44,503 bases of DNA. Source: Acidimicrobiaceae bacterium (GTDB taxonomy: Bacteria; Actinomycetota; Acidimicrobiia; Acidimicrobiales; RAAP-2). Below, piece after piece: positions 8,950 through 43,945 of this stretch (its first letter is position 1; every line of letters starts with the position of its first letter). The stretch covers positions 23,388 through 67,890 of the forward strand of contig PKXA01000049.1 in assembly GCA_003133325.1 (NCBI GenBank), in the 5' to 3' direction. Both the position numbers and the translations under genes were made by a program. The notes beneath the pieces are model-generated. The model worked only from the letters and a program-made list of their open reading frames with translations, ran no database searches and was not told the origin of the DNA.

Positions 8950-9022
8950 GCCGGTGTGGCGCAGTTGGTAGCGCAGACGATTTGTAATCGTCAGGTCGTG
9001 GGTTCGATTCCCACCGCCGGCT
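8950..9022 (+). tRNA. tRNA-Thr (anticodon TGT)
   Basis: Full cloverleaf. The acceptor stem GCCGGTG pairs with CGCCGGC including one G-U. The anticodon arm is GACGA-TTTGTAA-TCGTC with anticodon TGT, and the T arm is GTGGG-TTCGATT-CCCAC. The discriminator is T and no CCA is encoded. An integrase gene begins 144 bp downstream, so the 3' end of this gene is the likely chromosomal attachment site. Confidence 0.97.
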
Positions 9023-9081
9023 CGATATAAGTCCTAGTAGAGCGAGTTTACCCTCTTTGATCGAGGCCCTGGTACTCTCTA

Positions 9082-9166: not shown

Positions 9167-10417
9167 ATGGCGGGAAGCATCCGCAAGAGAGAGGACCGGG
9201 GGCTGGACGCCTGGGAGCTCCGCATCTTTCTCGGCCGAGACGCCAATAACCGGCCGAAACAGCGCAGCGTCCTGTTCCGGGGAGGGAAGCGGGCGGCCGA
9301 GAAGGAGCTGACTCGATTGGTCGCCCTTCAGGAGGAGGATCCTGTCCCCATCCCCGCTCCCGAGGAGGATCGCCGCTGGGGAGCTTCGACGACGATCAAC
9401 GATGCCGTCGAAGGATGGCGCTCCAACGGTTGGCAGGATCTGAGCCCGAGCACCGTTCGAGGCTACGAGGGGGTGTGGCGGCGCTACGTCGAGAACTCGA
9501 TCGGCACGCGGAGGATCGTCTCCCTCGGTCCATACGACATCGAACGGTACCTTCGCCAGCTCCAGGAGAACGGAGTCGGCCAGACCACCTTGCGCCTCGT
9601 CCGGGCGCTGCTCCATCGTGCGTGCCGGCTCGCTCGGAAGTGGAGCGGAAACACCCTCCCGAACCCGATCGCCGATACGGAGCTGCCGGCACGAACACTG
9701 AAAGACCGCCCACATCCCGTCCGGTCTCCCGAACTTTCAGAGGTGACAGCCATCATGGAGGAGGCACGGAAGGAAGATCCTCGCATCCCAACCTTCATCC
9801 GGCTGGTCGCAGCGACCGGCTGCCGGCGGGGCGAGGCGTGCGCTATTCGCTACAACGACATCGATCCCGACTCGCGCTCGCTTCTCATCGACGAGGGGAT
9901 CATCAGTTCCGGCGGCACCGCCACCGTGAAGTCTCCGAAGACCCGGGCAAGCATCCGCCGACTCGCGCTCGACGACGACACGTTCCAGGAGCTGGCCGCG
10001 CTGCGCGCTGTCCAGGAGAAGCTGGCCGGCGCCTGCGGCGTGGGGATCAGACCTGAATCGTTCGTCTTCTCCTTCGAGCCCGGCGGCTCCGTTCCTCCGC
10101 ATCCCGACTCCATGAGCCACGCCTTTTCACGTATCAGGAAGAAGGCGGGCGTGGCGGAAGACCTCCATCTCCACTCCCTACGGCATTTCCAGGCCACGAT
10201 CCTGGACCCCGTGATCTCGGAGAAGCAGAAGCAGGCCCGCCTCGGCTGGTCCACCGTCCACATGGCCCGCCATTACACGGACGCCATCGCCGAGGAGGAC
10301 CGCCGAGCGGCCGACCACGTCGGGATGGTGCTCAGGGGTGGCGCTGCGGAGGGCTCGATCGATGTCCCGCAGGTCGGGCAGCGGTCGCCTTCGGATGCAG
10401 CCCCTCCGGCGTCGTAA
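9167..10417 (+). CDS. int: Tyrosine-recombinase integrase
   Basis: 416 residues. The N-terminal arm-binding region (SIRKREDRGLDAWELRIFLG) is followed by a SAM-like core-binding domain at about 75-175 and a catalytic domain at about 190-385. Catalytic residues visible are Arg220 in TGCRRGE, Lys258 in SPKTRAS, His336 and Arg339 in LHSLRH, Trp361 in LGWST at the usual His/Trp position, and the nucleophile Tyr370 in ARHYTD. The start has GAGGAGG nine bases upstream. It catalyses element integration and excision at the adjacent tRNA-Thr. Its last 145 bp overlap the excisionase-like gene on the other strand. Confidence 0.95.
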   Translation: MAGSIRKREDRGLDAWELRIFLGRDANNRPKQRSVLFRGGKRAAEKELTRLVALQEEDPVPIPAPEEDRRWGASTTINDAVEGWRSNGWQDLSPSTVRGYEGVWRRYVENSIGTRRIVSLGPYDIERYLRQLQENGVGQTTLRLVRALLHRACRLARKWSGNTLPNPIADTELPARTLKDRPHPVRSPELSEVTAIMEEARKEDPRIPTFIRLVAATGCRRGEACAIRYNDIDPDSRSLLIDEGIISSGGTATVKSPKTRASIRRLALDDDTFQELAALRAVQEKLAGACGVGIRPESFVFSFEPGGSVPPHPDSMSHAFSRIRKKAGVAEDLHLHSLRHFQATILDPVISEKQKQARLGWSTVHMARHYTDAIAEEDRRAADHVGMVLRGGAAEGSIDVPQVGQRSPSDAAPPAS

Positions 10418-10689
10418 TCCAGCTCGCCACTGATGAGACGGTCCAGCGCAGCACGCGGGATGAGAATCTGTCGGTTCAACCGGATCACCGGCAGGGGGAA
10501 GCGGTTGTCCCCAATCGCTTTGTAGAGCGTTGAGCGGTCCGTGCCGAGCAGGACGGCCGCCTGGGTCACGGTGAGTAGCGGCCTTCCATGGATAGAGCCC
10601 GAACGGGCCTTCGCAGAGATCTTCGAGATCGGCTGCTGGTCGGACAAGACCATCTCACTACCTCTCTTAGCCTCGGCGATGACGCTCAT
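10273..10689 (-). CDS. Excisionase/AlpA-like helix-turn-helix protein with C-terminal CxxC
   Basis: 138 residues. The central segment LLTVTQAAVLLGTDRSTLYKAIGDNRFPLPVIRLNR is a MerR/AlpA-type winged HTH typical of recombination directionality factors. After it comes an acidic linker and CPTCGT, a lone zinc-knuckle half. The start ATG overlaps the upstream gene's stop (ATGA at 10686-10689), so both are one transcript. The last 145 bp run antisense to the integrase 3' end, giving potential for transcriptional interference between integration and excision. Confidence 0.75.
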   Translation of the reverse strand: MSVIAEAKRGSEMVLSDQQPISKISAKARSGSIHGRPLLTVTQAAVLLGTDRSTLYKAIGDNRFPLPVIRLNRQILIPRAALDRLISGELDYDAGGAASEGDRCPTCGTSIEPSAAPPLSTIPTWSAARRSSSAMASV

Positions 10690-11087
10690 AGTTCGGGTCC
10701 CCCACCGTCCGTGAGAGCGACATCGGCAGAGGCTCGACCCGCAAGGTTCGGAACGAGACGCAGGGACTTGAACCGGTCCAAGCAGGACCGGTCATTTGCC
10801 CAGCCGAGAATGGTCGTCGTTGCACTGTCGGCAGATGCCACGAAGAAGATCACGGTGTCGGAGGCCTGCGCCATCCCCACCTCGCCAGCGCGCCGGAGGC
10901 CCTCGGTGGCCATCCGTTCGGCAAAGGCATATGTGACATGCACGCCCATCGAGTCGGACGCGTGCCGTAGGCGGCGGGCGATCGTCCGGATCTCCCATGG
11001 AGAGACCGCAGGTGTGTTCCGCACCCGTTCGGCCTGGTGAACGGGTGCACCGATGTCTTCGATGTCCCGTGTGGTCTTGATGGCCAC
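10686..11087 (-). CDS. Conserved-looking protein of unknown function in the excision operon
   Basis: 133 residues, not recognised. It begins GTG ... AIKTTRDIEDIGAPVH and has a basic amphipathic stretch IRTIARRLRHASDSM. A mixed alpha/beta middle (MAQASDTVIFFVASADSATTTILG) could be a small fold. The GTG at 11085-11087 is preceded by GGGGAGGTAAAC at the end of the structured leader described at 11088-11165. Translational coupling to the excisionase-like gene suggests a role in element control, such as stability or excision. Confidence 0.6.
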   Translation of the reverse strand: MAIKTTRDIEDIGAPVHQAERVRNTPAVSPWEIRTIARRLRHASDSMGVHVTYAFAERMATEGLRRAGEVGMAQASDTVIFFVASADSATTTILGWANDRSCLDRFKSLRLVPNLAGRASADVALTDGGGPEL

Positions 11088-14084: not shown

Positions 14085-14279
14085 ATGGAACGGTCTATCG
14101 CTGTCGTTGATTCCGAGAGGGAAATCCGTGCCTGGGGCATCGCACAAGCCCGTGCTTCGTCTCGGTTGGAGGGTGTCGATCTGAGTCCCGGCGGTCAGGC
14201 CGTGGCCCAGCGCTACATCGACGGCGAGATCGACTCAGACCAGCTGGTCCAGGAGATGGCCAAACTCCATTTGGGATGA
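14085..14279 (+). CDS. VbhA-like antitoxin of a Fic toxin
   Basis: 64 residues. The inhibitory helix motif of class I Fic antitoxins, S/T-xxx-E-G/N, is present as SSRLEG in RASSRLEGVDLSPGG. In this family the glutamate enters the Fic active site and blocks productive ATP binding. The rest (GQAVAQRYIDGEIDSDQLVQEM) is helical. Its stop overlaps the fic start (GGATGACC, ATGA type), as expected for a co-translated toxin-antitoxin pair. Confidence 0.85.
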   Translation: MERSIAVVDSEREIRAWGIAQARASSRLEGVDLSPGGQAVAQRYIDGEIDSDQLVQEMAKLHLG

Positions 14280-15019
14280 CCGAAGATCCGTACCTCATCC
14301 CGGGTACGGAAGTTCTCCGCAACATTCCCGGGCTGACCAACACCGCCCAGCTCGAGGAGTTCGAGGCCAACATGGCGGCCGCCCGGGTAGCCCAGCTGGA
14401 AACCGTCGCCGTCAAGATCCCCGGTAACTGTGACCTCGATCACCTCCTGGCACACCACCGACACGTCTTCCAGGACGTCTACTCGTGGGCCGGCGTGCCC
14501 CGCACCGTATCCATCAGCAAGCCCGGCACCACCTTCTGTGAGCCTCGGTGGATCGAAAGTTCCGCAGCCACCATCTTCCAGGACTTGGCCCAGGCCAACC
14601 GCCTCCAGGGCCTGGAGCGCCCCGAGTTCGTCGCTGGGGCTGCCCACGTGCTGACCGAGATCAATGTCTTACATCCCGTGCGGGAGGGGAACGGCAGAGC
14701 CCAGCGCTCCTTTATGGGCACCCTGGCCCGACAGGCCGGCTGGCAGCTCGACTGGTCAAGGGTTGACCCAGCTCGCAACATCGAAGCGTCGATCGCCGGC
14801 TACCGGGGTGACGAACGTCCCATGGCTGAACTGCTCGACGACATCACCTCTCGACTCCCGCCTGGCTGGGAAACCGAGTCTTCTGGATCTCCGCCTGGCC
14901 GCTCCCCTACCCCGTCTCGTGGCCGGGGCTCCATCGGCCGACCAGCGGGGATCAGTGGTGCGCTGCCTCGCCTTCCCCGAAGCCGCCCCGGCCGCAACAA
15001 TCCGGGCTTCGGCCGCTAG
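14276..15019 (+). CDS. fic: Fic-domain AMP transferase toxin
   Basis: 247 residues. The Fic core covers about 40-185, with the catalytic loop HPVREGNGRAQR near residue 138. The canonical third residue Phe is Val here; the catalytic His, acidic residue, GNGR and final Arg are all kept. Fic proteins transfer AMP to hydroxyl side chains, and VbhT-type enzymes target DNA gyrase or topoisomerase IV. The last 55 residues are a Pro/Arg/Ser-rich tail with no domain, perhaps from fusion to foreign sequence. The module lies between two copies of an HTH-coding segment. Confidence 0.88.
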   Translation: MTEDPYLIPGTEVLRNIPGLTNTAQLEEFEANMAAARVAQLETVAVKIPGNCDLDHLLAHHRHVFQDVYSWAGVPRTVSISKPGTTFCEPRWIESSAATIFQDLAQANRLQGLERPEFVAGAAHVLTEINVLHPVREGNGRAQRSFMGTLARQAGWQLDWSRVDPARNIEASIAGYRGDERPMAELLDDITSRLPPGWETESSGSPPGRSPTPSRGRGSIGRPAGISGALPRLPRSRPGRNNPGFGR

Positions 15020-19050: not shown

Positions 19051-19263
19051 CTAGACAGCGACAGCGGCTACGTCAACACTCCCAGGGTCGGGGACCGGCA
19101 GCCCCTCCTCAGCGAGCCCCTCGAGGTGGAAAGGGATACCCTCGCGGATGAGCTGTTCGACCTCGGCCCGGGTCTCCCCGGTAACGCCGAGCCCGGGGAG
19201 GGCGGGCACGTAGGCACTCCACCCTGTCGAGGTGCGCTCGTAGACAACGCTCCACATGGTCAC
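19051..19263 (-). CDS. hicB: HicB-like antitoxin
   Basis: 70 residues. The text VVYERTSTGWSAYVPALPGLG, then VTGETRAEVEQLIREGIPFH, is the partial RNase H-like fold of HicB antitoxins, ending with a short acidic/Val tail and no DNA-binding domain. The start GTG overlaps the hicA stop (GTGA); an internal ATG two codons later is the alternative. HicB binds and neutralises HicA. Confidence 0.85.
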   Translation of the reverse strand: MTMWSVVYERTSTGWSAYVPALPGLGVTGETRAEVEQLIREGIPFHLEGLAEEGLPVPDPGSVDVAAVAV

Positions 19264-19463
19264 CGGTTCCCCTCCCCTCTGTCGATGCCAGCCTGGCGGA
19301 AGATGCTCCCCAGTGTACCAGCGGCCATCTCGTCGCTGGGTTTGCCGGCCACGGTGACCTTGCCAGGTTTGCTGCGGTGGCGGTACTGGCGGTGGCTGCC
19401 TCGCTGGCCGACGAAGTACCAGCCGTCTTGCTCCACGAGCCGTATCACGTCTCGAACCTTCAC
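19260..19463 (-). CDS. hicA: HicA-like mRNA interferase toxin
   Basis: 67 residues from GTG 19461-19463. The dsRBD-like fold reads VRDVIRLVEQDGWYFVGQRG, then GSHRQYRH with the catalytic His, then GKVTVAGKPSDEMAAGTLGSI. HicA cleaves mRNA when free of HicB. Longer starts upstream would add a Gly-rich stretch foreign to the family. It is translationally coupled to hicB. Confidence 0.87.
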   Translation of the reverse strand: MKVRDVIRLVEQDGWYFVGQRGSHRQYRHRSKPGKVTVAGKPSDEMAAGTLGSIFRQAGIDRGEGNR

Positions 19464-19622
19464 TGGGTGTTCGATCGGAGCGTCAGCACCCCCGCCTCCC
19501 ACGGTTTGTCCCACTCTCGTGACAGACCCCCAGCAGATCCCCGAAGGCGCCAGAGGTTCTCACCGGCCGGCTCGATGCCGGAGGCGGGGACGAGCTGTTG
19601 CCCGCTCGACGAGCGAACGCGG

Positions 19623-20260: not shown

Positions 20261-20842
20261 TCAGGCTGATGACGAGCGGCCCCGTTTCGGAGCCTGTCGG
20301 TCGAGGGCTACCGGCTCGAGGAGACCGAGAAGATCAGCTCGGGCACGAGCCACCCGAGAGCGGATCGTGCCGACCGGACATTCGCACACCTGTGCCGCCT
20401 CCTGGTACGTAAGACCCAGTAATTGGGTGAGAACGAAGGCGGCCCGTCGTTCCGGCTGGAGACGGCTGATCAGGTCGGCAACGGTAATCTCCTGGCTGGC
20501 GTCGGGCGCGAGATCGACACATTCATAACCCGCCTGCAACACCATGTCGCGCCGGCGCCGCCGACTTCGCGATCGAAGCTCGTCCATGCACGTATTCCGG
20601 GTGATCGCCAGCAACCAGGTTCTGGCCGATGCATCCCCCCGGAATTGCGGAAGGGCGCGGACCGCACGGATGAAGGTCTCTTGGGCAAGGTCTTCCGCAC
20701 TCTCGTTGTCCACCAGGCTGGCGCACAGTCGCCAGACCGGCTCGTAGGCCCCATCGATGAAGGCCTCGAGGGCGGCGTCATCACCGCCTCGAGCAGTATG
20801 AGCGAGGCGGGTGAGAGCATTCACGCCGGCCACTATAAGCAT
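20261..20842 (-). CDS. ECF-type RNA polymerase sigma factor
   Basis: 193 residues from ATG 20840-20842, preceded by GGAGAG. Region 2 reads AYEPVWRLCASLVDNESAED, then LAQETFIRAVRALPQFRGDA and ARTWLLAITRNTCMDELRSR. Region 4 reads RAAFVLTQLLGLTYQEAAQV, then CECPVGTIRSRVARARADLL. It is transcribed divergently from an operon starting with a zinc-binding anti-sigma factor, 86 bp away. An ECF-type promoter lies in that gap. It probably switches on the Sco/CtaG operon in response to an envelope, redox or metal signal; the inducer is not evident. Confidence 0.93.
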   Translation of the reverse strand: MLIVAGVNALTRLAHTARGGDDAALEAFIDGAYEPVWRLCASLVDNESAEDLAQETFIRAVRALPQFRGDASARTWLLAITRNTCMDELRSRSRRRRRDMVLQAGYECVDLAPDASQEITVADLISRLQPERRAAFVLTQLLGLTYQEAAQVCECPVGTIRSRVARARADLLGLLEPVALDRQAPKRGRSSSA

Positions 20843-20892
20843 TGGCTCGCACCGCTCTCCAATCGACGGAGATCGCTCCCGGAAGAATCCGT

Positions 20893-20923
20893 GGGAACTT
20901 TGGCGGAGCGCGGATCGACTATC
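20893..20923 (+). promoter_or_regulatory. ECF-type promoter of the anti-sigma/Sco operon
   Basis: GGGAACTTT at 20893-20901 carries the GGAAC -35 core of many ECF sigma factors. CGACTATC at 20916-20923 is a plausible -10, 17 bp after GGAAC. The start codon at 20929 follows so closely that the transcript would be leaderless or nearly so. Autoregulation by the divergent ECF factor is the simple reading. Confidence 0.6.
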
Positions 20924-20928
20924 AGGGT

Positions 20929-21735
20929 ATGAACTGTCAGGAGGCTCGCGGGGCGATTTCGGCGTTGCTGGACGGAGAACCACCGGGCGTCGCCGAGGGG
21001 GACCTCGAAGAGCACCTGTCCGGATGCACGGAGTGCCGGAGCTGGCAAGAGCGAGCCCATCATCTGACCAGACGAGTACGGCTGCAGGGCGTCCGGTCAA
21101 CGCCACGACCGACCGCCCACCTCATGGAGGCGGTCGCCCAGCAACGCCACGCGGGCCGATGGCGACCGGGGTCGATGGCGGCAGCTCGGATCGGCTTGGT
21201 CATGGTGGCTGTCACCCAGTTGCTGTTATGGGTGCCGGTGCTGCTCTTTGGCCACGACCGTGGCGCGCCGGTGCATGTGGCTCACGAGATGGGCGCGTTC
21301 GATGTGGCGGTGGCAATTGGCTTTCTGGTCGCCGCCCGGCGGCCGGGAAGGGCGATGGGCATGCTCTCGCTGGTAGGTGTAGCCGCCGGGCTGCTCGTGG
21401 TGACCGCGGCGGTGGATCTGGTGGCGGCCCGCACCGACGTGAGTGACGAGGCGCCCCATCTGCTGGTGGTGGCCGGATGGCTCCTGCTCTGGCGCCTCGC
21501 CGCCATCGCGCCCCCGACATGGGAACGCCCACAGGCCGTGTCGGCAGCCCTCGGATCGGCGTGGGCCGCACTGACCAGACGACAGGTGGCTGCTCGACAA
21601 CCCGCCGTATCCGGGAACCTATCCGCCGGCAGCCTTGCGACCGAGGCGGCATCGGTTTCACTCCCGGTGCCGGATCTGGCGGCCGATCGTCCGGATGGGC
21701 CAGCGAGCCGCCAGCCCGATGAGGCGGTGGGCTGA
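20929..21735 (+). CDS. ZAS-type anti-sigma factor with multiple membrane segments
   Basis: 268 residues from ATG 20929 (MNCQEARGAISALLDGEPPG). The N-terminal zinc-binding anti-sigma domain carries HLSGCTECRSW (HxxxCxxC). It is followed by about four to five hydrophobic segments (RIGLVMVAVTQLLLWVPVLL, AFDVAVAIGFLVAA, LVGVAAGLLVVTAAVDLV, LLVVAGWLLLWRLAA) and an Ala/Pro-rich C-terminal tail. It should hold the divergent ECF sigma at the membrane until signalled. A second ZAS protein is encoded three genes downstream. Confidence 0.85.
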   Translation: MNCQEARGAISALLDGEPPGVAEGDLEEHLSGCTECRSWQERAHHLTRRVRLQGVRSTPRPTAHLMEAVAQQRHAGRWRPGSMAAARIGLVMVAVTQLLLWVPVLLFGHDRGAPVHVAHEMGAFDVAVAIGFLVAARRPGRAMGMLSLVGVAAGLLVVTAAVDLVAARTDVSDEAPHLLVVAGWLLLWRLAAIAPPTWERPQAVSAALGSAWAALTRRQVAARQPAVSGNLSAGSLATEAASVSLPVPDLAADRPDGPASRQPDEAVG

Positions 21736-21786
21736 TATGTCATTGGCCATCTCGCCATCGATGTTCCGGCCGAGGAGTTAGTACCC

Positions 21787-23634
21787 ATGCCGGGCATGAA
21801 CACCGGGCTCAGTGCCAACAACCCCACCGTCGTCTCCGCCTTCCACGCGACCCTGCTCCGCCAGGGGTTCGTGGTGTTTGCCATCCTTGCCATCATCGGG
21901 TTGGCCTGGAACGTCCTGCGTTCGTTGCAACTGCGGCGCGCCAGCGGTGATGACGCCGGCCTGGGGGCTCCCTCCTCGTTCCCCGACCCCGAACCGGTGG
22001 CACGACGGCTCCTCCGGATCTCGTTCGGGCTCATTTGGATCTTCGACGGGATTCTCCAAGCCCAGGCGTCCATGCCTCTCGGCATGGCTCCTCAGGTCAT
22101 GAAGCCGGCGGCAGCCGCCTCTCCGGGATGGGTGCAACACCTCGTGAACGCGGTGGCCTCTACCTGGAGTTATCACCCGATCGCGGTCCCGGCATCGGCC
22201 GTGTGGATCCAGATCGGCATCGGCGTCTGGCTGCTCGCCGCCCCGAGGGGGAAGTGGTCACGGATGGCCGGGCTGGCCAGTGTCGGATGGGGGCTCATCG
22301 TCTGGGTCTTCGGGGAGGCTTTCGGGGGGATCTTCGCTCCGGGGCTCACCTGGGCGTTCGGGGCGCCGGGAGCCGCCTTGTTCTACTGCGTCGCAGGGAT
22401 TCTCATCGCCGTGCCCGAGCGCTGGTGGTCCAGCCCGCGGCTGGGTCGAGCCGTTCTTTCGACCATGGGCCTGTTCTTCGTAGGCATGGCCGTTCTCCAG
22501 GCGTGGCCGGGGCGAGGCTTCTGGCAGGGCCAGTCACCCCACGTGGCTACTCCCGGAACGCTCACCGGGATGGTCCAACAGATGTCCCAGACTCCCGAGC
22601 CCAACTTTCTCTCCTCGATGGTGACGGGCTTCGCCTCCTTTGACGCCGCCCACGGCTGGGCTGTCAATCTCTTTCTGGTGGTCGCCCTGGCCGCCATCGG
22701 AGCGACATTCCTGACCGGACGGCCGCGGATTGTGCGCTACGGGGTCGCCGCCGGGGTGGTCCTGTGCCTGGCCGACTGGGTGCTGGTGGAGGACTTCGGT
22801 TTCTTGGGCGGTGTCGGCACCGACCCGAACAGCATGATCCCGATTGCGCTGGTGTTTGTAGCCGGCTACCTGGCCATCAGCCGGCTCCCCACCACCGCCG
22901 GTGCGCCGGTGGTCCCGATCTCTGCGGCGTTGGGTGCCGGTCGTCCCTGGCGGGAACGACTCACCGCCAATCCGGTGTACGCCTTCCGAGCCATCGCCGC
23001 CCTTGGTGCCATCGGGATCGTGCTGGTCGGCGCCGCCCCGATGGCGGTAGCCGTCACCAATCCCAACGCCGATCCCATCCTTTCCCAGGCAATCGACGGC
23101 ACTCCGGAATCGACCGACACCCCCGCACCGGCATTCCAGCTCGTTGATCAGGACAACCGGACGGTGTCGCTGTCCAGCCTCCACGGCAAGGCGGTCGCCC
23201 TCACCTTCCTCGACCCGGTCTGCACCTCGGACTGTCCGACCATCGCCCAGGAGTTCCGCATCGCCGACGGTCTGCTCGGCACCGAAGCCAATCGGGTCGA
23301 ACTGGTTGCCGTCAACCTCAGTCCCCGTTACATCAGTCAGGACTTCCTGGTTGCCTTCGACAACCAGGAAGGTCTCAGTGCCCTGCCGAACTGGCACTAT
23401 CTGACGGGGTCGTTGCCGCAGCTCACGACCGTTTGGAACTCGTTCGGCGCCCAGAGTGCCTATTCGCCGGGTGGAGCGATGATCGCCCACAGCGACATCA
23501 GCTACGTCATCGACCCGAGCGGGCATACCCGCTACATCTTGGATACCGACCCCGGTCCGGGCAGCCAGGCGACGAACTCGTCGTTTGCCGTCACGCTGGC
23601 GAACGCGATCACGAACGCCCTCCGCTCGCCATGA
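21787..23634 (+). CDS. Polytopic membrane protein fused to a Sco1/SenC copper-chaperone domain
   Basis: 615 residues. The first about 420 form a membrane domain of eight to ten segments (FVVFAILAIIGLAWNVL, ISFGLIWIFDGILQAQ, IQIGIGVWLLAAP, ALFYCVAGILIAVP and others); I do not assign its family with certainty. The last about 190 are a thioredoxin-like Sco domain: FQLVDQDNRTVSLSSLHGKAV, then LTFLDPVCTSDCPT with the CxxxC metal ligands, and the ligand His likely in MIAHSDISYVIDPSGHTRYIL. Sco proteins deliver copper to the CuA site of cytochrome oxidase or act as thiol redox partners. Fusion to a large membrane module is unusual. The start has GAGGAG ten bases upstream. Confidence 0.85.
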   Translation: MPGMNTGLSANNPTVVSAFHATLLRQGFVVFAILAIIGLAWNVLRSLQLRRASGDDAGLGAPSSFPDPEPVARRLLRISFGLIWIFDGILQAQASMPLGMAPQVMKPAAAASPGWVQHLVNAVASTWSYHPIAVPASAVWIQIGIGVWLLAAPRGKWSRMAGLASVGWGLIVWVFGEAFGGIFAPGLTWAFGAPGAALFYCVAGILIAVPERWWSSPRLGRAVLSTMGLFFVGMAVLQAWPGRGFWQGQSPHVATPGTLTGMVQQMSQTPEPNFLSSMVTGFASFDAAHGWAVNLFLVVALAAIGATFLTGRPRIVRYGVAAGVVLCLADWVLVEDFGFLGGVGTDPNSMIPIALVFVAGYLAISRLPTTAGAPVVPISAALGAGRPWRERLTANPVYAFRAIAALGAIGIVLVGAAPMAVAVTNPNADPILSQAIDGTPESTDTPAPAFQLVDQDNRTVSLSSLHGKAVALTFLDPVCTSDCPTIAQEFRIADGLLGTEANRVELVAVNLSPRYISQDFLVAFDNQEGLSALPNWHYLTGSLPQLTTVWNSFGAQSAYSPGGAMIAHSDISYVIDPSGHTRYILDTDPGPGSQATNSSFAVTLANAITNALRSP

Positions 23635-24848
23635 ACCGGACGGCCGTTTATCGACGAGAGCCGTCGAACCTGGGTGGGCGGGTGGCGATGGCCGTGGCGG
23701 CGTTGACCCTTGGCGCCCTTCTCTGCGCTTGCTCTCACTCTTCGTCACCCAGCGGTGATGCCGCCACCACGGCCATCGCCCCCATCCCTACGCCGATGGC
23801 GACATCGATCGAGACCGCCGATGGGACATGGTCCTCGATTCCCATGGGCCATCTCGATCAGCCGCTCAATACCTTCTGGCAACTGTTCTTTTTGCCCTCG
23901 GGTTCCTCAACCTGGTCGAATCAGGTGGAAGCCACCGCCGTTGCCACCAACGGGGGCATCGTTCTCGCCTCCGACGGCCACTCGCTGCTCGCCGGCATTC
24001 GCCCGTCGAACTTGCTTACTTACTCTCCGCTTATCGACACCTCTGACGCCGGCAATACCTGGTCCAACGGGCTCCTCACCGAGGCGCTCACCGCTCATCC
24101 CAATGCGCTGGCGGTCAACGCCAATGGTCAAGGCTTGGCCCTCGTCAACGGCCCAGGCAGCATCCGGGTCCTCTCCAGTGACAACCTGTCCACCTGGCGA
24201 ACGCTGGTGAGCGAACCCACCCTCGCCGCCTCGATCCCGGGGCGCGACTGCGGCCTCGCCTCCATCGACGCCCTCGCCTACAGCTCGGGGGAGCCGGTGG
24301 TCGGGGCACAATGCAGCCGACCCGGGGTGGTGGGGATCTTTGCCGATGACCCGGGCGGTTGGCGACTTGTCGGTCCCCTTCTTCCCTCCTCGCGGCGTGG
24401 GGCCGGCGTCGAAGTCTTGTCCCTCGATGCCACCGACACCGGACTTTCGGCCCTGCTCGGTGTCTCCGACCCGTCGGGCACCAGCCTGGTCGGGGCCACC
24501 ACCGCCAATGGCGGCGTCAACTGGGCTCTGTCCCCGGCATTCCGCCTCAAGGCCTCCGAACAGGTGGCGTCCTTCGGGCCCGCCCCCGATGCCGGGTTCT
24601 TTGTGCTGTCGTCCGGGCCATCGGGGGACAACCTCGAGGTGCTCGACGGCCCGAACTCGACCTGGGCTGCCCTCCCTCCGCCACCCACGGGGACCGCGAC
24701 CGTCGCATTCGGTCCCGCCCCGACGGTCGATGCGCTGGTGGTCGACCAGACAGTGATGACGGTCTGGACCCTCAGCACCGGGTCGTCGAGTGGATGGGTG
24801 AAAGGCCAGGTCGTCAACGTCCCGATCCAGTTCGGTTCCTCCTCATGA
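23631..24848 (+). CDS. Secreted lipoprotein with Asp-box (BNR) propeller repeats
   Basis: 405 residues, ATG overlapping the Sco stop (ATGA). The signal peptide ends in a lipobox LGALLCAC, so the mature protein is tethered to the membrane. Repeated TSDAGNTWS, SSDNLSTWR and TTANGGVNW segments are Asp-box-like turns of sialidase/BNR beta-propellers. Function is unknown; by context it may sense or bind something outside the membrane for the Sco/CtaG system. The C-terminal edge is again translationally coupled to the next gene. Confidence 0.75.
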   Translation: MNRTAVYRREPSNLGGRVAMAVAALTLGALLCACSHSSSPSGDAATTAIAPIPTPMATSIETADGTWSSIPMGHLDQPLNTFWQLFFLPSGSSTWSNQVEATAVATNGGIVLASDGHSLLAGIRPSNLLTYSPLIDTSDAGNTWSNGLLTEALTAHPNALAVNANGQGLALVNGPGSIRVLSSDNLSTWRTLVSEPTLAASIPGRDCGLASIDALAYSSGEPVVGAQCSRPGVVGIFADDPGGWRLVGPLLPSSRRGAGVEVLSLDATDTGLSALLGVSDPSGTSLVGATTANGGVNWALSPAFRLKASEQVASFGPAPDAGFFVLSSGPSGDNLEVLDGPNSTWAALPPPPTGTATVAFGPAPTVDALVVDQTVMTVWTLSTGSSSGWVKGQVVNVPIQFGSSS

Positions 24849-25327
24849 CTTCTCGGCGAAAGTCCGATCACGTCGTCCACCGCGATGCTGCCGGTTGCGA
24901 TGAAGTTCGCCTCGCGGTCTCGGCTCGGCTTGACGGCGAGGCGGGCCATGTTCCCGAAGCGATACTCGAGGACCATTTGGCCGTCTGTGAGCTCTGCCGA
25001 ACCTTTCGGGCCGAGGTGGTCTCGCTGACTCGACAGGTTCGCCTGCGAGTTCCGAAGCCGGCCCCCAAGGGCCTGGTGCCATTGCTCGTCTCGCTAAGGG
25101 CCGGCGACCCGCAGGCAGCAAAGGGTCCGTCGCGGCCGGGTCGTTTCCTTCGTCGGTCCCGCCATGGCTGGCTACGGGTCACCCAGTGGACCGCGGCGGG
25201 CGCACCCGCCGTCATCGCCATTCCGGTTCTCGCCCTCGGAGCCTTTGGCCACCCCCACATCGTCGCCTCCCACGTCCCGACTCCGTGCACGTTCTACCTG
25301 TTGGCCCACCATGCGCGCTCCCACTAA
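24845..25327 (+). CDS. Second ZAS-type anti-sigma-like protein
   Basis: 160 residues, ATG overlapping the lipoprotein stop (ATGA). The N-terminal domain CDEVRLAVSARLDGEAGHVP and HLAVCELCRTFRAE (HxxxCxxC) matches the anti-sigma factor at 20929. The following SLTRQVRLRVPKP matches its HLTRRVRLQGVRS. There is one membrane segment (AAGAPAVIAIPVLALGAFG). Two ZAS proteins for one visible ECF factor suggests duplication with a divided sensing role. Confidence 0.75.
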   Translation: MTSRRKSDHVVHRDAAGCDEVRLAVSARLDGEAGHVPEAILEDHLAVCELCRTFRAEVVSLTRQVRLRVPKPAPKGLVPLLVSLRAGDPQAAKGPSRPGRFLRRSRHGWLRVTQWTAAGAPAVIAIPVLALGAFGHPHIVASHVPTPCTFYLLAHHARSH

Positions 25328-25416
25328 CTGCGCGGTGTTTGGACATGATCGTTGGCCGCCGACAGCCCAACATGCGCAAACGGGCCACGTGATCAAGGCC
25401 GAACGAAGGAGCCGTC

Positions 25417-26427
25417 ATGCCTAAGATGAACATGCCGGGGATGGGACGGGTCACCTTCACCGCCCACCATGCCCTCACCCTCTGGCAGTGGAGCCCGTTC
25501 CCTCTCTTGGTGGTGGCTGCGTTGATCGCCATCGCCTACTGGTACCTCCGAGCCGACTGGCGACTTGCCGCTCGAGGTCGACGCTGGCCGGGTCATCGCA
25601 CGGCTGCCTTCCTTGCGGGTTTGGTGACGGTCGATCTGGCCCTGCAGTCTCCCGTCGCCACATTCACTGGGACCTACTTCCAAGCCCACATCATCCAGCA
25701 CCTCCTCCTTATGCTGGTCGCCCCCCCGCTGTTGGCGCTCGGCGCCCCGTCGACCTTGCTGCTCAAGACGGCCAACCGCCGGACCAAGGTCGCCTGGCTG
25801 AAGTTCCTGCGATCCCGGCCGTTCACGGTGGCGACCAACCCGTTCTTCGTGTGGCTCCTCTACTTCGGGCTCATGTTCGGGTTCTTCCTCACCCCGCTCA
25901 TCAATGTGGCCATGCTTCACATGCCGCTCATGGATGTCCTGAATCTGTCGTTCCTGTTAGGAGGCTCCCTCTACTGGTGGCCCATGGTCGGCATCGACCC
26001 CATAGTGCACTGGAAGATGGGGTACCCGGGGAGGATGCTCAACGTCCTCCTCGGCGGATTCCCCGATGTGATCCTGGGGCTGGCCATCCTCTCGGCTCGC
26101 ACGCCAATCGCATCGATGTACACGTTGGCCAGTACCCACGCCGGTGGTGGATTGTTGTGGATGTCGACCGAGGTCTCCGCCCTCGGCGGAGCCGTGCCCA
26201 TATTCTTCCAGTGGATGCGCTCTGACGAACGAGCCGCAGCCCGAGACGCGGTCCGAGATGCCCGGATTGAGAGTTCGACCGCGGCCGACAAGATAGCCAC
26301 TCCGACTCTACAGACCGAGGGTTCGGAGCCACAGGTGACCGCCTGGGAGGAGGCGTGGCTGGCGCGGACGGGCTCGATCCCAACCCAGATGGCCGCTCTC
26401 TCTCGCACCGCCAAACGCTCACCGTGA
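25417..26427 (+). CDS. ctaG: CtaG-type cytochrome c oxidase assembly factor
   Basis: 336 residues of the caa3-type CtaG family. About seven membrane segments carry conserved motifs FQAHIIQHLLLMLVAPPLLALGAP, ALQSPVATFTGTYF and GSLYWWPMVGIDP, plus the His-rich start MPKMNMPGMG and TAHHALTLWQW. These proteins assist assembly of, and copper supply to, heme-copper oxidases. AAGGAG lies upstream of the ATG. It follows the Sco1-fusion operon, so both steps of oxidase copper loading are in one cargo. No oxidase subunits are present, so it would serve a host enzyme. Confidence 0.9.
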   Translation: MPKMNMPGMGRVTFTAHHALTLWQWSPFPLLVVAALIAIAYWYLRADWRLAARGRRWPGHRTAAFLAGLVTVDLALQSPVATFTGTYFQAHIIQHLLLMLVAPPLLALGAPSTLLLKTANRRTKVAWLKFLRSRPFTVATNPFFVWLLYFGLMFGFFLTPLINVAMLHMPLMDVLNLSFLLGGSLYWWPMVGIDPIVHWKMGYPGRMLNVLLGGFPDVILGLAILSARTPIASMYTLASTHAGGGLLWMSTEVSALGGAVPIFFQWMRSDERAAARDAVRDARIESSTAADKIATPTLQTEGSEPQVTAWEEAWLARTGSIPTQMAALSRTAKRSP

Positions 26428-26486: not shown

Positions 26487-26600
26487 ATGACTCGACTTGG
26501 TGAGCTGGAACGGAGAGTGATGGAGGAACTGTGGGCATCACCGTGCTCGATCATCGGCCCAGGGTGGGATCCGGGCCGGTACCCCGAGGACGATCGATGA
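26487..26600 (+). pseudogene. Truncated BlaI/MecI/CopY-family repressor gene
   Basis: The first about 16 residues, MTRLGELERRVMEELW, are the standard N-terminus of BlaI/CopY winged-helix repressors. After ASP the frame turns into unrelated text (CSIIGPGWDPGRYPEDDR) and stops. CtaG is often followed by a BlaI-type gene and a BlaR/M56 peptidase in actinobacteria. Here the gene is cut at about 26535, next to the end of the transfer backbone, marking a recombination junction. Confidence 0.65.
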
Positions 26601-29175: not shown

Positions 29176-32100
29176 TCACCGGCCAAATCCTCGGTCAGCC
29201 TGGTGCACCCGGCGGAGCGTCGCCTGCTCCCGAGCCCGCACGGCGGCTTCAGCCGCCCCCGGCCGCGCCGGGCCTGGTACATCTCCCCCCGGTTCCGGCA
29301 CTTCGGACTCGACCTGGGCTTCGTCCGGGGCTGGGACAAGCGCAGCGTCGATGGCGGCGAGTCGTTGCCGCAGCGAGTCGATGCGCTGCGTACTCTCGAA
29401 GGGCTGGCCGATACGAGCGGCAGCTTTGGCGGCCTCGGAGCGAGCCGCCTGCGCCTTGTCTTCGGCCTGGTGGCCTCGTTCCTCCAAATCGCCGGCCAGG
29501 TTCTCCAGGCGCGTCAGGAGCCCGAGCGGAGAATTGTTCCGCAGCTCGTGACGGGCAAGGGTCGGAGTGGACCGGGGAACACCACGGAGGCTCAGGCTGG
29601 CGGTCGACTCGGAGCTGTCTTTGGAGAGCGTCGCCAGTACGTCGAAACCGCCCAACTCGCCCACCGTCACGGTCCGACGCTCCCCGACCGGGAGCTGTCG
29701 TTGTACCTCCAGCACGTGAGTTTGTAACGCCGTGGCGGCATCGGTTCGGTGATCGTAGGACTGCCGGTCGACCAGCATGGCGAACTGACCCGCCGACGTG
29801 TCGACGGCCCGCCCGCCCGCCGCGTGGTAGGCGGCCGCCATCCCCGCCTGGTCGGTGGCCTCCCGCTCTGACGAGCGAATCCGCTGCGCCAGGCGGGCCT
29901 GATCGTCTCGATGGGCCGACTGAAGCCGCTGCAGCTTGGTCAGTTCTTGTTCGACGCCGGCTCGCTCCATGATGAGCGGGTTACCGGTGGCGAGGGCCTT
30001 TACCTCCGCGTACGACAGCGCCTGGTCGCCGATGTCGTCGATCGAGCGTTCGGTCACGTCGCCTCGCATCACCTGGTCGATGAAGGCGGCCTTGCGTTCG
30101 ACGGTCTGCCAACTGAACACGTCGAAACTGCCTTCGGTGACGTACCGGATCACCTGGACTTCCTCGTTCTGGTTGCCCTGCCGCAATATTCGGCCGTCTC
30201 GTTGTTCGAGATCGGCCGGTCGCCAGGGGCAGTCCATGTGATGGAGGGCGAGGGCTCTGTCCTGCACATTCGTACCCACCCCCATCTTCTCCGTCGAGCC
30301 GATCAGCACGGCGATGCTCCCTGCCCTCGCCGCCGCAAACAAGCGCGCCTTCTCGGCATCGTTCCGAGCTTCGTGCATGAACCGAATGGCCTCCCCTGGG
30401 ACGCCGCGGGCGACCAGCTCGGCCCGCAGTTGGTCGTAGACCGTCCAACGATCGTCGCTGTGTGGAGTCCCGAGGTCACAAAAGACCAGCTGCAGAGCCC
30501 CCGTGCGTGGAGACTCGACGCCATCTCCGTCGAGGTACACACGGTCGAGGCTCTGGCGATAGACACCACCGATGCGATCTGCCGCCACGGTGATCTTGCC
30601 CCCGGTCGGGTCCGGGGCCAGGCCCACCAGCCGAAGGTCCAACGCGGCTTTGCGTCCGTCTCCGGAGACCTTCAGCATGTTGTCTTCTTCGGGCCGCACC
30701 ATCCGGTTCCGGATCTGCTCCGCTCGATCGGCCAGGGTTCCGACGTACTCGGTGAGCTCGGAGGAGGGGGCCACCACCACGGTTTCCGCTTTGTCACCGA
30801 CCAGGCCAGGGGTGGGTAGCCCGATTTGCTCGCTGGTACGGACGTCGGCGACCGAACGGAACATCCGCAACAGGTCGGGCACGTTGGCGAACCGGGCGAA
30901 TCGGGTGTTCATCCGGTAGGTGGTGCTGTCCGGGGCCAGCTCCAGGGCGGTGACGGTGCGCCCGAAATTGGCCGCCCACCCGTCGAAGTGCTCGATGCCG
31001 GCGGCGCGAAGCGTCTCTGGTTGCAGGTAGTGCTGCATCACGTACATCTCGGCCACGCTGTTGGCGATGGGGGTGGCCGTGGCGAAGGTGGCCACCCGGC
31101 CGCCGTGGGTGTCCCGCAACCAGCCGATCTTCATGGCCAGGTCCGCGGCCCGTTTGGACCCCGTCCCGTTGACGCCGTCGATGTGCGTCGGGAACTCCAG
31201 GTTCTTGAACGAGTGGGCTTCGTCGACCACGGCGTAGTCGATGCCGGTGGCTTCCCAGGTCACGCCCCCCTCGTCCCGGCGCCTGTCGTCGAGGAGCCGG
31301 GCGTGGCGCTCCTCGGAGCGGGCCAGGGCCTTCTCGAGCTTCTTCACGCTGAGGCCCTGGCCGTCATTGCTGGCGGCGATGGCCGCCCGCAGCTCGGCCA
31401 TGCCCGCATTAAGAAAACCTTGCTCGGTCTCCTTGGAGACCGGGATCCGCTCGAAGCTGGACATGGTCATAATGACCGCGTCCCAGTCCTCGGCCGCACA
31501 GCGGGCCACGAACTCCTTGCGCGAAGACGGTGACACGTCGTCCTTGTTTGCCACCAGGATCTTCGCCTGCGGGTACAGCTGGAGGTACTCCCGGGAGAAC
31601 TGCTCCAGCATGTGGTTGGGGACCACGAACGCCGGCTTGTTCACCATCCCGAGCCGCTTCAGTTCATAACCTCCCATCACCATGCTGGCGGTCTTCCCAC
31701 TTCCGACCGCGTGAGCCAGCAGCACCGAATCACTCGACAGGATGCGCCATACGGCGTCTCGTTGGTGCGGGTGGGGCCGGAAGTTGTCGGCCAGGCCCGG
31801 GAAGCTCAAGTGCGACCCGTCGTAGGCGGGTAACACGATGGAGTTGAACCGTTCGTTGTACTCACCGGCCAGGCGGCCAGCCCGCATCTGGTCTTCCCAG
31901 ACCCAGGCAGCGAAGCGCTCGCCGATCATCTCTTGCTTCTCGCGGGCCGCCAGAGTCTCGGCCAGGTTCGGGACCCGCTCACCGTTCGGGCCTTCGTCGA
32001 AGACCGACACCACCCGTTGGTTGGCGCTCGCCTCGACCAGGCGAACGCCGTCGACCCTACGAGTCCCCCAGTCCGAGGTCAGGGCGATCGACGACCGGCT

Positions 32101-33569: not shown

Positions 33570-33957
33570 CGCCTACCCCCTCTCTGGTCGCGTGTCGCAC
33601 GGCCAGAGTGGTCACGATCAGGTCGGTCGCGTGTCTCCGGCCCATCTTTCGCCAGGCTGGGGTGGACTCCATGATCTGGTGTAGTCGGTCGTGACACGGG
33701 CGACAGAGCGAGATCACATCGGTGAACCATTCGTGCCCAAGCCGGGCGTAGGTCCGGTGGTGAAGATCGCCGCCTCTCAACGTCCAAGCCCCGCCACAAA
33801 TCACGCAGAACGGTTCAGTGCCGTGCGCGTCTACCCACTGGTTCCGCCACGCTTCACGACGCCGATGCCAAGCGGCAGAGGCCATCCAGTCGGCGTAGGC
33901 CCGCCGTCTGGCCACGCGCCCCCGGCTCCATGCCAGGCCAGGGCGGGGGTCACGCAT
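33562..33957 (-). CDS. HNH endonuclease of the transfer operon
   Basis: 131 residues from ATG 33955-33957, overlapping the coupling-protein stop by eight bases. The HNH fold is complete: FCVICGG, DLHHRTYARLGHEWFTDVIS and LCRPCHDRLH give both CxxC knuckles and the catalytic His pair. The length is that of a stand-alone HNH protein. Its place between the coupling protein and DUF4913 suggests a conserved transfer-cluster nuclease, perhaps acting on incoming or competing DNA. It is not a recognised relaxase. Confidence 0.8.
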   Translation of the reverse strand: MRDPRPGLAWSRGRVARRRAYADWMASAAWHRRREAWRNQWVDAHGTEPFCVICGGAWTLRGGDLHHRTYARLGHEWFTDVISLCRPCHDRLHQIMESTPAWRKMGRRHATDLIVTTLAVRHATREGVGDG

Positions 33958-35725
33958 GGTTGGCTCCGGCCTGCATGGCGGCCTCGAACTTTGAGCGAGC
34001 TCGGGCGAGCTCATTCGCATCGTCCCGGTCGGTCCACGGTGACAGTCGCATCATGATCGGCGGGGCCGATCGCAGCAACAGCAGCCCGTGTCCCAACTTG
34101 ATCCGCCGGATCTCTGCCGGCTCGAGGATCGGCCGTTGTCGAATCTGCATGGACACCGACCGACCTTGGGGTCCGGCACCGTGGGTCTCCGACCACTCGT
34201 GGACGGCGCGATCGCCGATCAGGCGAGAGATGTCCGAGAGGTCGTCCGCGTTCGCCGAGCCACCGAGGATCAACTTCACGATGGCAGAGTCCCAAATCGC
34301 CCCGGCTGCCTCTTGGCCCCACTTGTCCCGGGCCTGGGCGAGAGACTGGAGGACGGCGAGCGTCGTGATCCCGGTGCCGCCACCTTCGGACATCAGAGCG
34401 GGCAGTGAAGGCAATGGGTAGTTGGCCGCCTCGTCGAGAACGAGGGCCAGCGGAGGGTCGAGCCGAGCGCCGGTGGAGCGGGCCGCCATGCGTCGAGCAG
34501 CATCCACGACGTCTTCAACCAACGCAGCCACGAAGTTGGCGGTGGCGTTGGAGCCGGACGCGGTTCCCAACAAATAGAGCGTTCCGTGCGCTGCAAGGAA
34601 GTGGGCCGGGTCGAAGGCCTCTCCCATTGCAGGGGTAACCGCAGCCAGGACGGCGGGGTCGGCCAGCGGGGAGAAGGTGTTCGCCACCATGGCCCACACC
34701 GAGTCTCGTGTGCGTTGGTCGGCGGAGATGATTGCATCCAACGCCCGGTCCCAGCCCGGCGTTGCTCCCGGTGTCTGGGTGAGGATGGTGACGGCCTCAC
34801 GGGCGCCGCCGGCCGCATGGGACCAGCGGTAGAGGTCGGCTGGTGGCCGATCGTCCAGAGCGGCGGCGTGCAACAGACAGCGGACTGCCGCCACGGTCTG
34901 TTGTTGCCAGAAGGTGCCGTTCTCCACCGACCCTGCCGAGTCGGACACCAGAGCAGCAGCCCGCACCATCGCCGTCTGCGGGCGCTCGCAGCCCCGGACC
35001 GGGGACCATCGCAGAGAGGGGAGGTGTGTACCGGCGGGAGCGAGGCCCTGGGGGTCGAACACCGCCACTGGTCGATCACCGGAGGAGCGGGCCGCCAGGG
35101 TGACGGTCAGATTGTCGGGTCGGGTCGAAGTGGTCACGACGGCGCCCGGCGCATCGAGGATCATCGGGATCACGACGTTGTGGCCCTTGCCGGAACGTGG
35201 TGGCCCGAGCAGCAGCATGGAGTCTTCCACCGAGGCCCAGCACGCCACGCCCCGGCTGGCCCCGAGCCGGTAGCCGACATCTTGCGGCCGAGGCTTGTCG
35301 ATCGACGGGCGCAACGTCCGGCCACGAGCCATCAGTGGTTTCGGGCCGGCAGAAGCGGCCACCTGGCGGCGATCAGCCAGGCCTTCGGCCTTGGTCGGAT
35401 CCGAGGTGGCCCGGTTGCCTTCGCGACGGAACAGCCGGAGGCCGGCCCACACCAAGACGGCGAACACCACCAGAAACAAGGTGGTCACGGCCCAGTAGAG
35501 GGTGGCCGGGCCCACCGAAGCGTGCCAGACGAGGGTTGGATTGCCGGGGTGCCCGAAGGCGCGAAGGGGAGCGAACGCATCGGCGTGCGGAGCTGGGTGG
35601 CCCGACACCCTGGCCGAGGTTTCGCCGGCGAGCCAGAGGACACCGTCGAGGACGGCGCAACCGAGGATGGCAAAGAGTGCGTGGTCCCTGCCGTCACGAG
35701 GGAGCGTAGGAGTGGACGTCATCAC
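33950..35725 (-). CDS. Type IV coupling protein (VirD4/TraG-like)
   Basis: 591 residues. Two N-terminal membrane segments (about 15-34 and 75-97), Walker A LLLGPPRSGKGHNVV at 174-181, Walker B LALVLDEAANYPLP, and SEGGGTGITTLAVLQSLAQA of the TraG/TraD C-terminal ATPase. It links the DNA-relaxase complex to the secretion channel. Start GTG or the adjoining ATG; both overlap the upstream stop. Confidence 0.92.
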   Translation of the reverse strand: MMTSTPTLPRDGRDHALFAILGCAVLDGVLWLAGETSARVSGHPAPHADAFAPLRAFGHPGNPTLVWHASVGPATLYWAVTTLFLVVFAVLVWAGLRLFRREGNRATSDPTKAEGLADRRQVAASAGPKPLMARGRTLRPSIDKPRPQDVGYRLGASRGVACWASVEDSMLLLGPPRSGKGHNVVIPMILDAPGAVVTTSTRPDNLTVTLAARSSGDRPVAVFDPQGLAPAGTHLPSLRWSPVRGCERPQTAMVRAAALVSDSAGSVENGTFWQQQTVAAVRCLLHAAALDDRPPADLYRWSHAAGGAREAVTILTQTPGATPGWDRALDAIISADQRTRDSVWAMVANTFSPLADPAVLAAVTPAMGEAFDPAHFLAAHGTLYLLGTASGSNATANFVAALVEDVVDAARRMAARSTGARLDPPLALVLDEAANYPLPSLPALMSEGGGTGITTLAVLQSLAQARDKWGQEAAGAIWDSAIVKLILGGSANADDLSDISRLIGDRAVHEWSETHGAGPQGRSVSMQIRQRPILEPAEIRRIKLGHGLLLLRSAPPIMMRLSPWTDRDDANELARARSKFEAAMQAGANHA

Positions 35726-42623: not shown

Positions 42624-43697
42624 TTAGCCGTCAGCCGGGGCCGGATCGCGGAGAGCATCGAGGCCACCGGAAATGAACGTCTGCCACGACTGGACCTCCA
42701 CTCCCATTTGCGGATCGATCGCACTCTCCACCAGGCCGTAGCCGAGGTAGATCCCGACATGGCCGGCCTCGCCCGGACCAGGCGAGTCTGATCCCGGTGT
42801 GAGCACCAGGTCGCCGGCCATGAGCTCCGACGCAGTGCCCGCCACACCCTCGCTCTGCTGGGACACGGTGTAGTGGTCCAAGGTGACCCCGGCGGTCACC
42901 CATGCCGCCATGGTCAGACCTGAACAGTCATATGCGTTCGGGCCAGCGGCGGCCCACACGTAGGGCTTGCCGAGCTGAGCGATGGCGAAACTGACGACTT
43001 CTGCATGCTCGGGGCCCGTTCCGGGCGGGACGGTGTAGCCGAGCGGGAGACCGAAGGAAGAGGCAGGTCCGGTGATGCCACCGGGGACCCCTTGGCCACA
43101 CGTCCCGGCCGTGTTCCCGTTGGACAGAACGGCGGTGAGGATTGTACCTGCCTGCGCCCAGTTCGCTTGGTAGTTCTGCCCGAAGGCGAACGCGGAGCGC
43201 TGAACGGATTGGGCGGCCAGCCACGGAGCCGTCGCTTGCCAGTCGGGGGTGGCGATCAGACGTTCGACGAACATGCCGGTGGCCGCAGGCGGGTCCATCT
43301 CTTGGGCCGCCGTTCCCCACCCCTGGCTGACCCGCTGTTGGAACAGACCGAGCGACCCGGCGTTCCCAGGTCTCGGACCGAGGTTTTGGAGACCCGACTC
43401 CGTAAGGGCGACCATCACGGTGATCTGCGCGGCTGTCTGGTTTTCCCCCGAGTCAGCAAACGTAGCGGCGACGGTCTGGTCGGCATAGCCCGCTTGGGAC
43501 GGGGAGAGCCCGGGGACCGGGCCCGACGGTGTGCACGCCTGGCTGGCTTGGAGTGCCGCGGCCGTGAGCGACATAGCGGCGCTCTGATAACCGGGGACAC
43601 CGCCCACGACAGCAACGAACCCGATGAGAACCGCGAGTGCGGCAGCGGCGAGGCCGATGGCGATCATCGGCGCGGCCGAGGTGTCCTGGTCACTCAC
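42624..43697 (-). CDS. Bifunctional peptidoglycan hydrolase: lysozyme-like plus NlpC/P60
   Basis: 357 residues from GTG 43695-43697, overlapping the whiB stop (GTGA). An N-terminal membrane segment (MIAIGLAAAALAVLIGFVAV) is followed by a transglycosylase-like domain with the catalytic Glu in MVALTESGLQN and GSLGLFQQR. The C-terminal C40 peptidase has the Cys in NAYDCSGLTMAAW, the His in GEAGHVGIYLG and ELMAGDLVLTPG. Such proteins open the wall for the conjugative channel (VirB1/TcpG role). It starts the visible transfer operon after whiB. Confidence 0.9.
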   Translation of the reverse strand: MSDQDTSAAPMIAIGLAAAALAVLIGFVAVVGGVPGYQSAAMSLTAAALQASQACTPSGPVPGLSPSQAGYADQTVAATFADSGENQTAAQITVMVALTESGLQNLGPRPGNAGSLGLFQQRVSQGWGTAAQEMDPPAATGMFVERLIATPDWQATAPWLAAQSVQRSAFAFGQNYQANWAQAGTILTAVLSNGNTAGTCGQGVPGGITGPASSFGLPLGYTVPPGTGPEHAEVVSFAIAQLGKPYVWAAAGPNAYDCSGLTMAAWVTAGVTLDHYTVSQQSEGVAGTASELMAGDLVLTPGSDSPGPGEAGHVGIYLGYGLVESAIDPQMGVEVQSWQTFISGGLDALRDPAPADG

Positions 43698-43945
43698 GTC
43701 AGCTGCTCGCCACGTCCCCGACGACACTGCCACTCGGTCAAGCCACCCGAGATGCCAACCTCGTCAGCGTTCCCCATGGAAACCGTCTGGCAGGAGTCGA
43801 TCACCGGGCAGTTGGTGCACACGGCCAGCGCCTGACTCGCCGTCCGGTCGTCGGATGACTCGTGGAACCAGATTCCGGTATTGCCACCACGACATGCTGC
43901 TTGGCCTCGCCACGGCGGAGTGGGGAGTGGAGGGGTCATACCCAT
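43694..43945 (-). CDS. WhiB-family iron-sulfur regulator
   Basis: 83 residues from ATG 43943-43945 (a second ATG two codons later is equally possible). Four cysteines C18, C43, C46 and C52 give the C-x24-CxxC-x5-C cluster ligand pattern. The G-rich turn GISGGLTEWQCRRGRGE follows with a basic end. Wbl proteins bind [4Fe-4S] and the primary sigma factor. At the head of the transfer operon it probably controls conjugation in response to redox or development. The start codon lies inside a predicted hairpin. Confidence 0.9.
   Translation of the reverse strand: MGMTPPLPTPPWRGQAACRGGNTGIWFHESSDDRTASQALAVCTNCPVIDSCQTVSMGNADEVGISGGLTEWQCRRGRGEQLT

Follow-up and report, generated by a model that had tools for sequence, protein, structure and literature searches.

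A SigC-like sigma factor and two candidate anti-sigma factors beside putative copper-delivery genes on an integrative conjugative element of an Acidimicrobiaceae bacterium

Overall organization of the copper block

The window analysed here, a 44,503-nucleotide stretch of DNA from an Acidimicrobiaceae bacterium (assembly GCA_003133325.1) that forms the right part of contig C49, contained a block of six intact genes at positions 20261–26427. An extracytoplasmic function (ECF) sigma factor gene on the minus strand diverged from a plus-strand run of five genes (20929–26427), which encoded a candidate zinc anti-sigma (ZAS) protein (zas1), a membrane protein fused to a Sco domain, a lipoprotein, a second and shorter ZAS candidate (zas2), and a CtaG-family protein. 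The Sco fusion/lipoprotein and lipoprotein/zas2 junctions were formed by ATGA overlaps. The block is probably a self-regulated, SigC-like operon for extracytoplasmic copper delivery, captured as cargo by an integrative conjugative element (ICE). The base of this explanation was the gene order, the promoter, the conservation of partner genes, and the structure of the element. An earlier sequence-only reading of the window had proposed the same six genes, which were confirmed at these positions (Table 1).

Sigma factor and promoter

The sigma factor probably started at ATG 20842, and the mechanical open reading frame (ORF) opened upstream at GTG 21106. The protein scored over the Pfam cut-offs for Sigma70_r2 (62.9 bits) and Sigma70_r4_2 (57.6 bits) without a region 3 match, which is the composition of the ECF family. 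The best NCBIfam models were PRK12535 (154 bits) and SigC PRK09649 (151 bits), both below cut-off, and the next family followed at about 100 bits. Structures of the region 2 and region 4 domains of SigC were among the PDB matches.

A GGAAC-type promoter had been suggested between the sigma factor gene and the operon, and it was located as GGGAAC-N17-CGACTA, 7 nt before the ATG of zas1. This spacing predicts a leaderless zas1 mRNA. Of 24 loci bearing the sigma factor, 18 had the motif GGAAC-N17-CGAC[CT] between the sigma factor gene and its neighbour; in 500 first-order resamplings the mean was 0.026 and the maximum 1. Because the loci are related, they do not count as 24 separate events. The motif was directed towards the sigma factor gene in none of the 24 loci, and Sco-fusion loci lacking a sigma factor had no motif upstream of Sco, save chance-like matches. 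The form GGAAC-N17-CGACTA occurred once in the 4.05 Mb assembly and a backwards control pattern three times; the lone genome match is therefore not evidence by itself, and the weight lies on position and conservation.

The sigma factor and zas1 beside copper genes in other families

In the genomes searched, zas1 homologues were found in only one other genome (G016) of the host's family and in eight genomes, one weakly, of other families of the order. In the seven neighbourhoods that were fetched (L156–L162), zas1 was divergent from a sigma factor gene whose product was 43–52% identical to that of the window. Pfam-confirmed CopC-CopD, DUF1775/YcnI, PCuAC, or Sco was encoded in six of the seven (L156, L158, L159, L160, L161, and L162). 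The seven neighbourhoods contained 14 strict motif sites, compared with a shuffled mean of 0.275, and besides zas1 these sites preceded YcnI (L158), Sco and PCuAC (both in L159 and L161; the Sco of L161 is a Sco-like reading of an ORF outside the Pfam scan). The recurrence of the sigma factor, zas1, and the motif beside copper genes is the strongest evidence pointing to a copper role of the sigma factor.

These loci resembled the window in the sigma factor family, the ZAS protein with four transmembrane (TM) helices, the promoter motif, and a mostly leaderless-type spacing. They differed in carrying other copper cargo, and the Sco-membrane fusion and the propeller lipoprotein were not detected there.

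Candidate anti-sigma factors

Both ZAS proteins exceeded the PF13490 cut-off, contained the zinc-finger motifs HLSGCTEC and HLAVCELC, and were encoded beside an ECF sigma factor, in agreement with the sequence definition of ZAS proteins. They are anti-sigma factor candidates, for which binding and inhibition of the sigma factor are predicted. The zas1 product had a cytosolic zf-HC2 domain (H-x3-C-x2-C) and four predicted TM helices bearing HVAHE and EAPH motifs. The zas2 product had a zf-HC2 domain, one predicted TM helix, and a predicted extracytoplasmic tail with the sequence SHVPTPC. All 13 aligned full-length relatives of zas2 had a predicted TM helix and, in the tail, a histidine near a cysteine, with a wider gap in L093. 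The histidine and cysteine of the tail are a lead towards a sensor role rather than a test of one.

The pairing of two ZAS proteins had been described as unusual, and it held up: both types occurred together only in the window among 17 sigma-linked Sco loci. L068 had zas1 only, and in the remaining loci the space between sigma and Sco was too short for zas1. The two proteins might sense copper in different ways for a single sigma factor, zas2 by binding copper directly through its extracytoplasmic tail and zas1 through its membrane histidine motifs, as a mobile dual-sensor switch that sets the copper loading of host oxidases. This idea is doubtful; if true, a dual-sensor switch of this kind would be one not described before.

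Sco fusion, lipoprotein, and CtaG

The Sco fusion was composed of about nine predicted TM helices within residues 1–421 and a C-terminal Sco domain (residues 449–580). The Sco motif, C479-x3-C483 and His568, was conserved in 96–100% of 54 aligned sequences (His568 in 96%). The structure model had a predicted local distance difference test (pLDDT) score of 86.8, and Foldseek comparison with Sco structures gave TM-scores by target length of 0.72–0.86 for the ten best Sco matches. The thioredoxin-like fold, the C-x3-C motif, and the distal histidine ligand identified a Sco-type copper chaperone by sequence and model; the domain also matched the AhpC-TSA and Redoxin families of Pfam. For the membrane domain no convincing Pfam or PDB match was found, apart from a weak DUF6041 match in 8 of 54 members, and the whole-protein Foldseek search was swamped by the Sco domain. 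A stand-alone relative of this membrane domain was observed at L128 8001–10306; its neighbours were a gene for a CopA-type P-type ATPase and one related to the L069 membrane protein.

The lipoprotein had the lipobox LCAC and a confident beta-propeller model (pLDDT 87.6), and its Cys207 and Cys228 were invariant. The CtaG protein scored 191 bits against a PF09678 cut-off of 27.7 and 51.2 bits against a cut-off of 279 for the NCBIfam equivalog TIGR02737, and it is thus a family member rather than the equivalog.

Genomic settings of the Sco fusion

The Sco-fusion query was matched in 40 of 61 whole genomes of the host and its relatives, many of the matches being to one domain only, and in 69 loci of a second collection, mostly from metagenome-assembled genomes (MAGs) of Acidimicrobiales and Streptosporangiaceae. 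The Sco fusion with its lipoprotein is, from these matches, a lineage-wide module; the fusion, which had been called unusual, turned out to be the normal form in the lineage.

Reading of the synteny by tblastn distinguished two main settings. In one, which lacked the sigma factor, oxidase genes including COX2 and COX1 lay downstream of the Sco fusion, the lipoprotein, and a CtaG; the paralogue on the host chromosome (contig C118) was part of such an oxidase operon. In the other, the genes for the Sco fusion and the lipoprotein came after a divergent sigma factor gene and were in most cases joined by a short ZAS and frequently by a CtaG, and an oxidase gene was mostly absent. In L075, L090, and L104 the sigma factor was accompanied by another CtaG type and a ZAS. 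L104 combined sigma, ZAS, Sco, lipoprotein, and CtaG and continued into oxidase genes; the sigma-linked setting may thus plausibly have arisen from an oxidase operon under sigma control.

In the Sco tree, the window sequence was placed among mostly sigma-linked sequences, with moderate support in its group, and the C118 copy among oxidase-linked ones. A recent duplication of the host's Sco locus was rejected, as the two copies were 57% identical and lay in different parts of the tree.

Oxidase-free sigma-linked clusters of the same kind were present in other MAGs, so that the cluster is not special to the element. Fixed chromosomal synteny in relatives, which the sequence-only reading had named as evidence against it, was found in part: L069 and L071 shared a chromosomal-looking arrangement in which the sigma-linked Sco cluster lay between an upstream CopA-type P-type ATPase gene and zwf. 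CopA-type genes were also found near the related loci L092, L124, L127, and L128.

Integrative conjugative element

The proposed location on a conjugative element was confirmed by sequence: the copper block is carried by an ICE, whose excision and transfer are predicted. The last 45 bases of a tRNA-Thr gene next to the integrase gene recurred perfectly at G000:C56:23961–24005 (attR), where ARAGORN found no tRNA, and a TrwC relaxase was encoded on C56 between the att sites. An integrase, att direct repeats, a coupling protein, and a relaxase were thus all present. The joining of C49 and C56 into one element is inferred, and the known parts of the element add up to about 60 kb. The end of C49 contained an apparent IS30-type transposase fragment, as read from its sequence. 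When the cluster was compared with known plasmids, none of the matches spanned 80% of the query, and all the matches listed were to the Sco domain only.

COX1 genes over the family cut-off numbered two in the host, on contigs C16 and C118 only. No oxidase core gene is therefore carried on the two known contigs of the element, as had been supposed.

After CtaG, a short frame at 26487–26600 (MTRLGELERRVMEELW) read like the truncated start of a BlaI/MecI-type regulator. It had no Pfam match, and no BlaI partner (PF03965 protein) was found for it in the genome or the fetched loci. The right edge of the copper block at this fragment may be a recombination scar.

Table 1. Positions of the copper block and of element features in the window
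Feature	Coordinates	Strand	Evidence
tRNA-Thr (TGT), integration target	8950..9023	+	45-bp perfect repeat on C56; attL = 8979–9023
Tyrosine integrase of element	9167..10417	+	PF00589 E=9.5e-16
ECF sigma factor, SigC-like	20261..20842	-	PF04542, PF08281; NCBIfam PRK12535, SigC PRK09649; PDB 2o7g, 2o8x
Predicted sigma-dependent promoter GGGAAC-N17-CGACTA	20893..20921	+	Motif conservation
zas1, anti-sigma factor candidate	20929..21735	+	PF13490 E=8e-8; TM prediction; homologues in other families
Polytopic membrane domain fused to extracytoplasmic Sco domain	21787..23634	+	PF02630 E=4.5e-9; alignment; model; Foldseek
Lipoprotein, predicted beta-propeller	23631..24848	+	Lipobox, structure model
zas2, short anti-sigma factor candidate	24845..25327	+	PF13490 E=5.9e-6; tail motif in relatives
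CtaG-family membrane protein	25417..26427	+	PF09678 E=2.4e-56
TraG/VirD4 (type IV secretion system) coupling protein	33950..35725	-	PF12696 E=3.6e-27, PF02534
NlpC/P60 cell-wall hydrolase, transfer region	42624..43733	-	PF00877 E=1.2e-13

Proposed function and alternatives

In the proposed copper-delivery operon, the sigma factor would be kept at the membrane by the ZAS proteins and set free by a signal from outside the cytoplasm, which is most likely copper status. The released sigma factor would then direct transcription of the operon with zas1 first, from a leaderless mRNA, giving negative feedback. Sco and CtaG would assist in filling the copper sites of the heme-copper oxidases encoded on the host chromosome, and it is possible that the element retunes host respiration in this way. 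The copper role first suggested for Sco and CtaG was supported as far as delivery is concerned, by the copper genes beside sigma and zas1, the CopA-type gene upstream of L069 and L071, the oxidase genes accompanying L104 and the host's C118 copy, and the retained Sco motif. By analogy with M. tuberculosis SigC, copper shortage is slightly favoured as the inducing signal over copper excess or a redox signal.

Several observations weigh against this explanation. The nearest Sco relatives, L063–L067 (65–68% identity), lacked the sigma factor and had no promoter ahead of Sco; the module can therefore do without sigma control. Genes for CopA, CopCD, or PCuAC were not seen next to the cluster of the window. 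The sigma factor reached 150.7 bits against a cut-off of 219 for the SigC equivalog NF007231 and is SigC-like, not SigC. A relaxed motif gave 20 genome-wide matches against 11 for a control, which is near chance, and most lay inside long open frames; with this motif no broader set of sigma targets could be made out in the host.

The same genes could also be read as copper detoxification, with a sigma factor that answers excess and with Sco, the propeller, and CtaG as metal-resistance cargo that buffers or sequesters copper on the outer side of the membrane; such cargo is common on mobile elements. The ICE location fits this reading, as do the CopA-type genes, presumably for export, adjoining or near the related clusters described above. 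It is nevertheless unlikely, because many versions of the Sco fusion sat in oxidase operons, the element genes examined included no recognisable efflux ATPase or multicopper oxidase, and the CopCD and YcnI partners are tied to copper acquisition in Bacillus (PMC12362106, PMC13344008).

The block would be an inert passenger if a chromosomal fragment had been swept into the element and had no present role. The truncated BlaI-like frame, as a possible scar, is in keeping with such a history, but all six frames were intact and the promoter fitted its conserved form, and this reading is very improbable. ZAS zinc sites can be redox-sensitive (RsrA type), and the Sco domain resembled AhpC-TSA and Redoxin; the ZAS proteins might then respond to oxidants, and Sco might be a thiol-disulfide oxidoreductase instead of a copper chaperone. 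Such a redox or thiol stress module is hardly probable given the retention of the copper ligand His568 in nearly all Sco relatives, the CtaG that usually accompanies Sco, and the copper proteins that partner sigma and zas1 elsewhere.

Comparison with known systems

The M. tuberculosis SigC has been reported to prevent copper starvation (PMC7924339). It was among the two nearest NCBIfam models and the PDB matches of the window sigma factor, and has a copper-related regulon. The targets reported for it, ctpB and the nrp operon, do not include Sco and CtaG, and the window sigma factor, unlike SigC, has ZAS partners. SigC is placed in ECF36, and its control was proposed to occur by conformational change rather than by an anti-sigma factor (PMC8999054). 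Some ECF36 members carry a fused anti-sigma domain of three to four TM helices (PMC8999054), a topology that zas1 resembles. CorE of Myxococcus xanthus is likewise an ECF sigma factor tied to copper (PMC3107203), but it responds to copper itself (PMC8999054), whereas the window has separate membrane ZAS proteins.

The oxidase-linked operons (host C118, L046, L047, L077, L085, and others) resembled the window in having Sco fusion, lipoprotein, and a CtaG in that order. They differed in encoding COX2, COX1, and other oxidase genes, in lacking sigma factor and ZAS genes, and in occupying a separate part of the Sco tree. The element did not differ in anything basic from actinobacterial tRNA-integrated conjugative elements, with which it shared the tyrosine integrase, the tRNA att site, TraG/VirD4, and the TrwC relaxase; the copper cargo is its added feature.

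No literature was found on this sigma type together with Sco or CtaG. The new findings are the conserved link of sigma factor, ZAS, and promoter to extracytoplasmic copper genes in the order, and the occurrence of this link on a conjugative element. In several families of the order, genes for extracytoplasmic copper proteins go with a SigC-like sigma factor, membrane anti-sigma candidates, and a precise promoter, so that an ECF-type copper-delivery regulon has become open to direct test. Copper genes on mobile elements are generally seen as resistance genes; here, genes with a probable role in the copper loading of respiratory oxidases are the cargo of a conjugative element.

Neighbouring genes

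A HicA toxin (PF07927, E=1e-20) was encoded at window positions 19051–19514, immediately to the left of the copper block, and a small HicB-like ORF lay next to it. Positions 14276–15019 encoded a Fic-domain protein that matched the PADLOC candidate defence family PDC-S04 (E=6e-69), and positions 29176–32925 a 1249-residue helicase weakly similar to the BREX/DISARM helicases BrxHI and DrmD (PADLOC). A complete Qat anti-phage system (QatA-D, PADLOC models) lay inside the element near attR, at 8417–13529 of L141 (G000:C56:8000–27999). About 2 kb downstream of the sigma/zas1/Sco/CtaG cluster of L068, positions 9249–11042 encoded a SIR2-domain protein of the candidate defence family PDC-S65.

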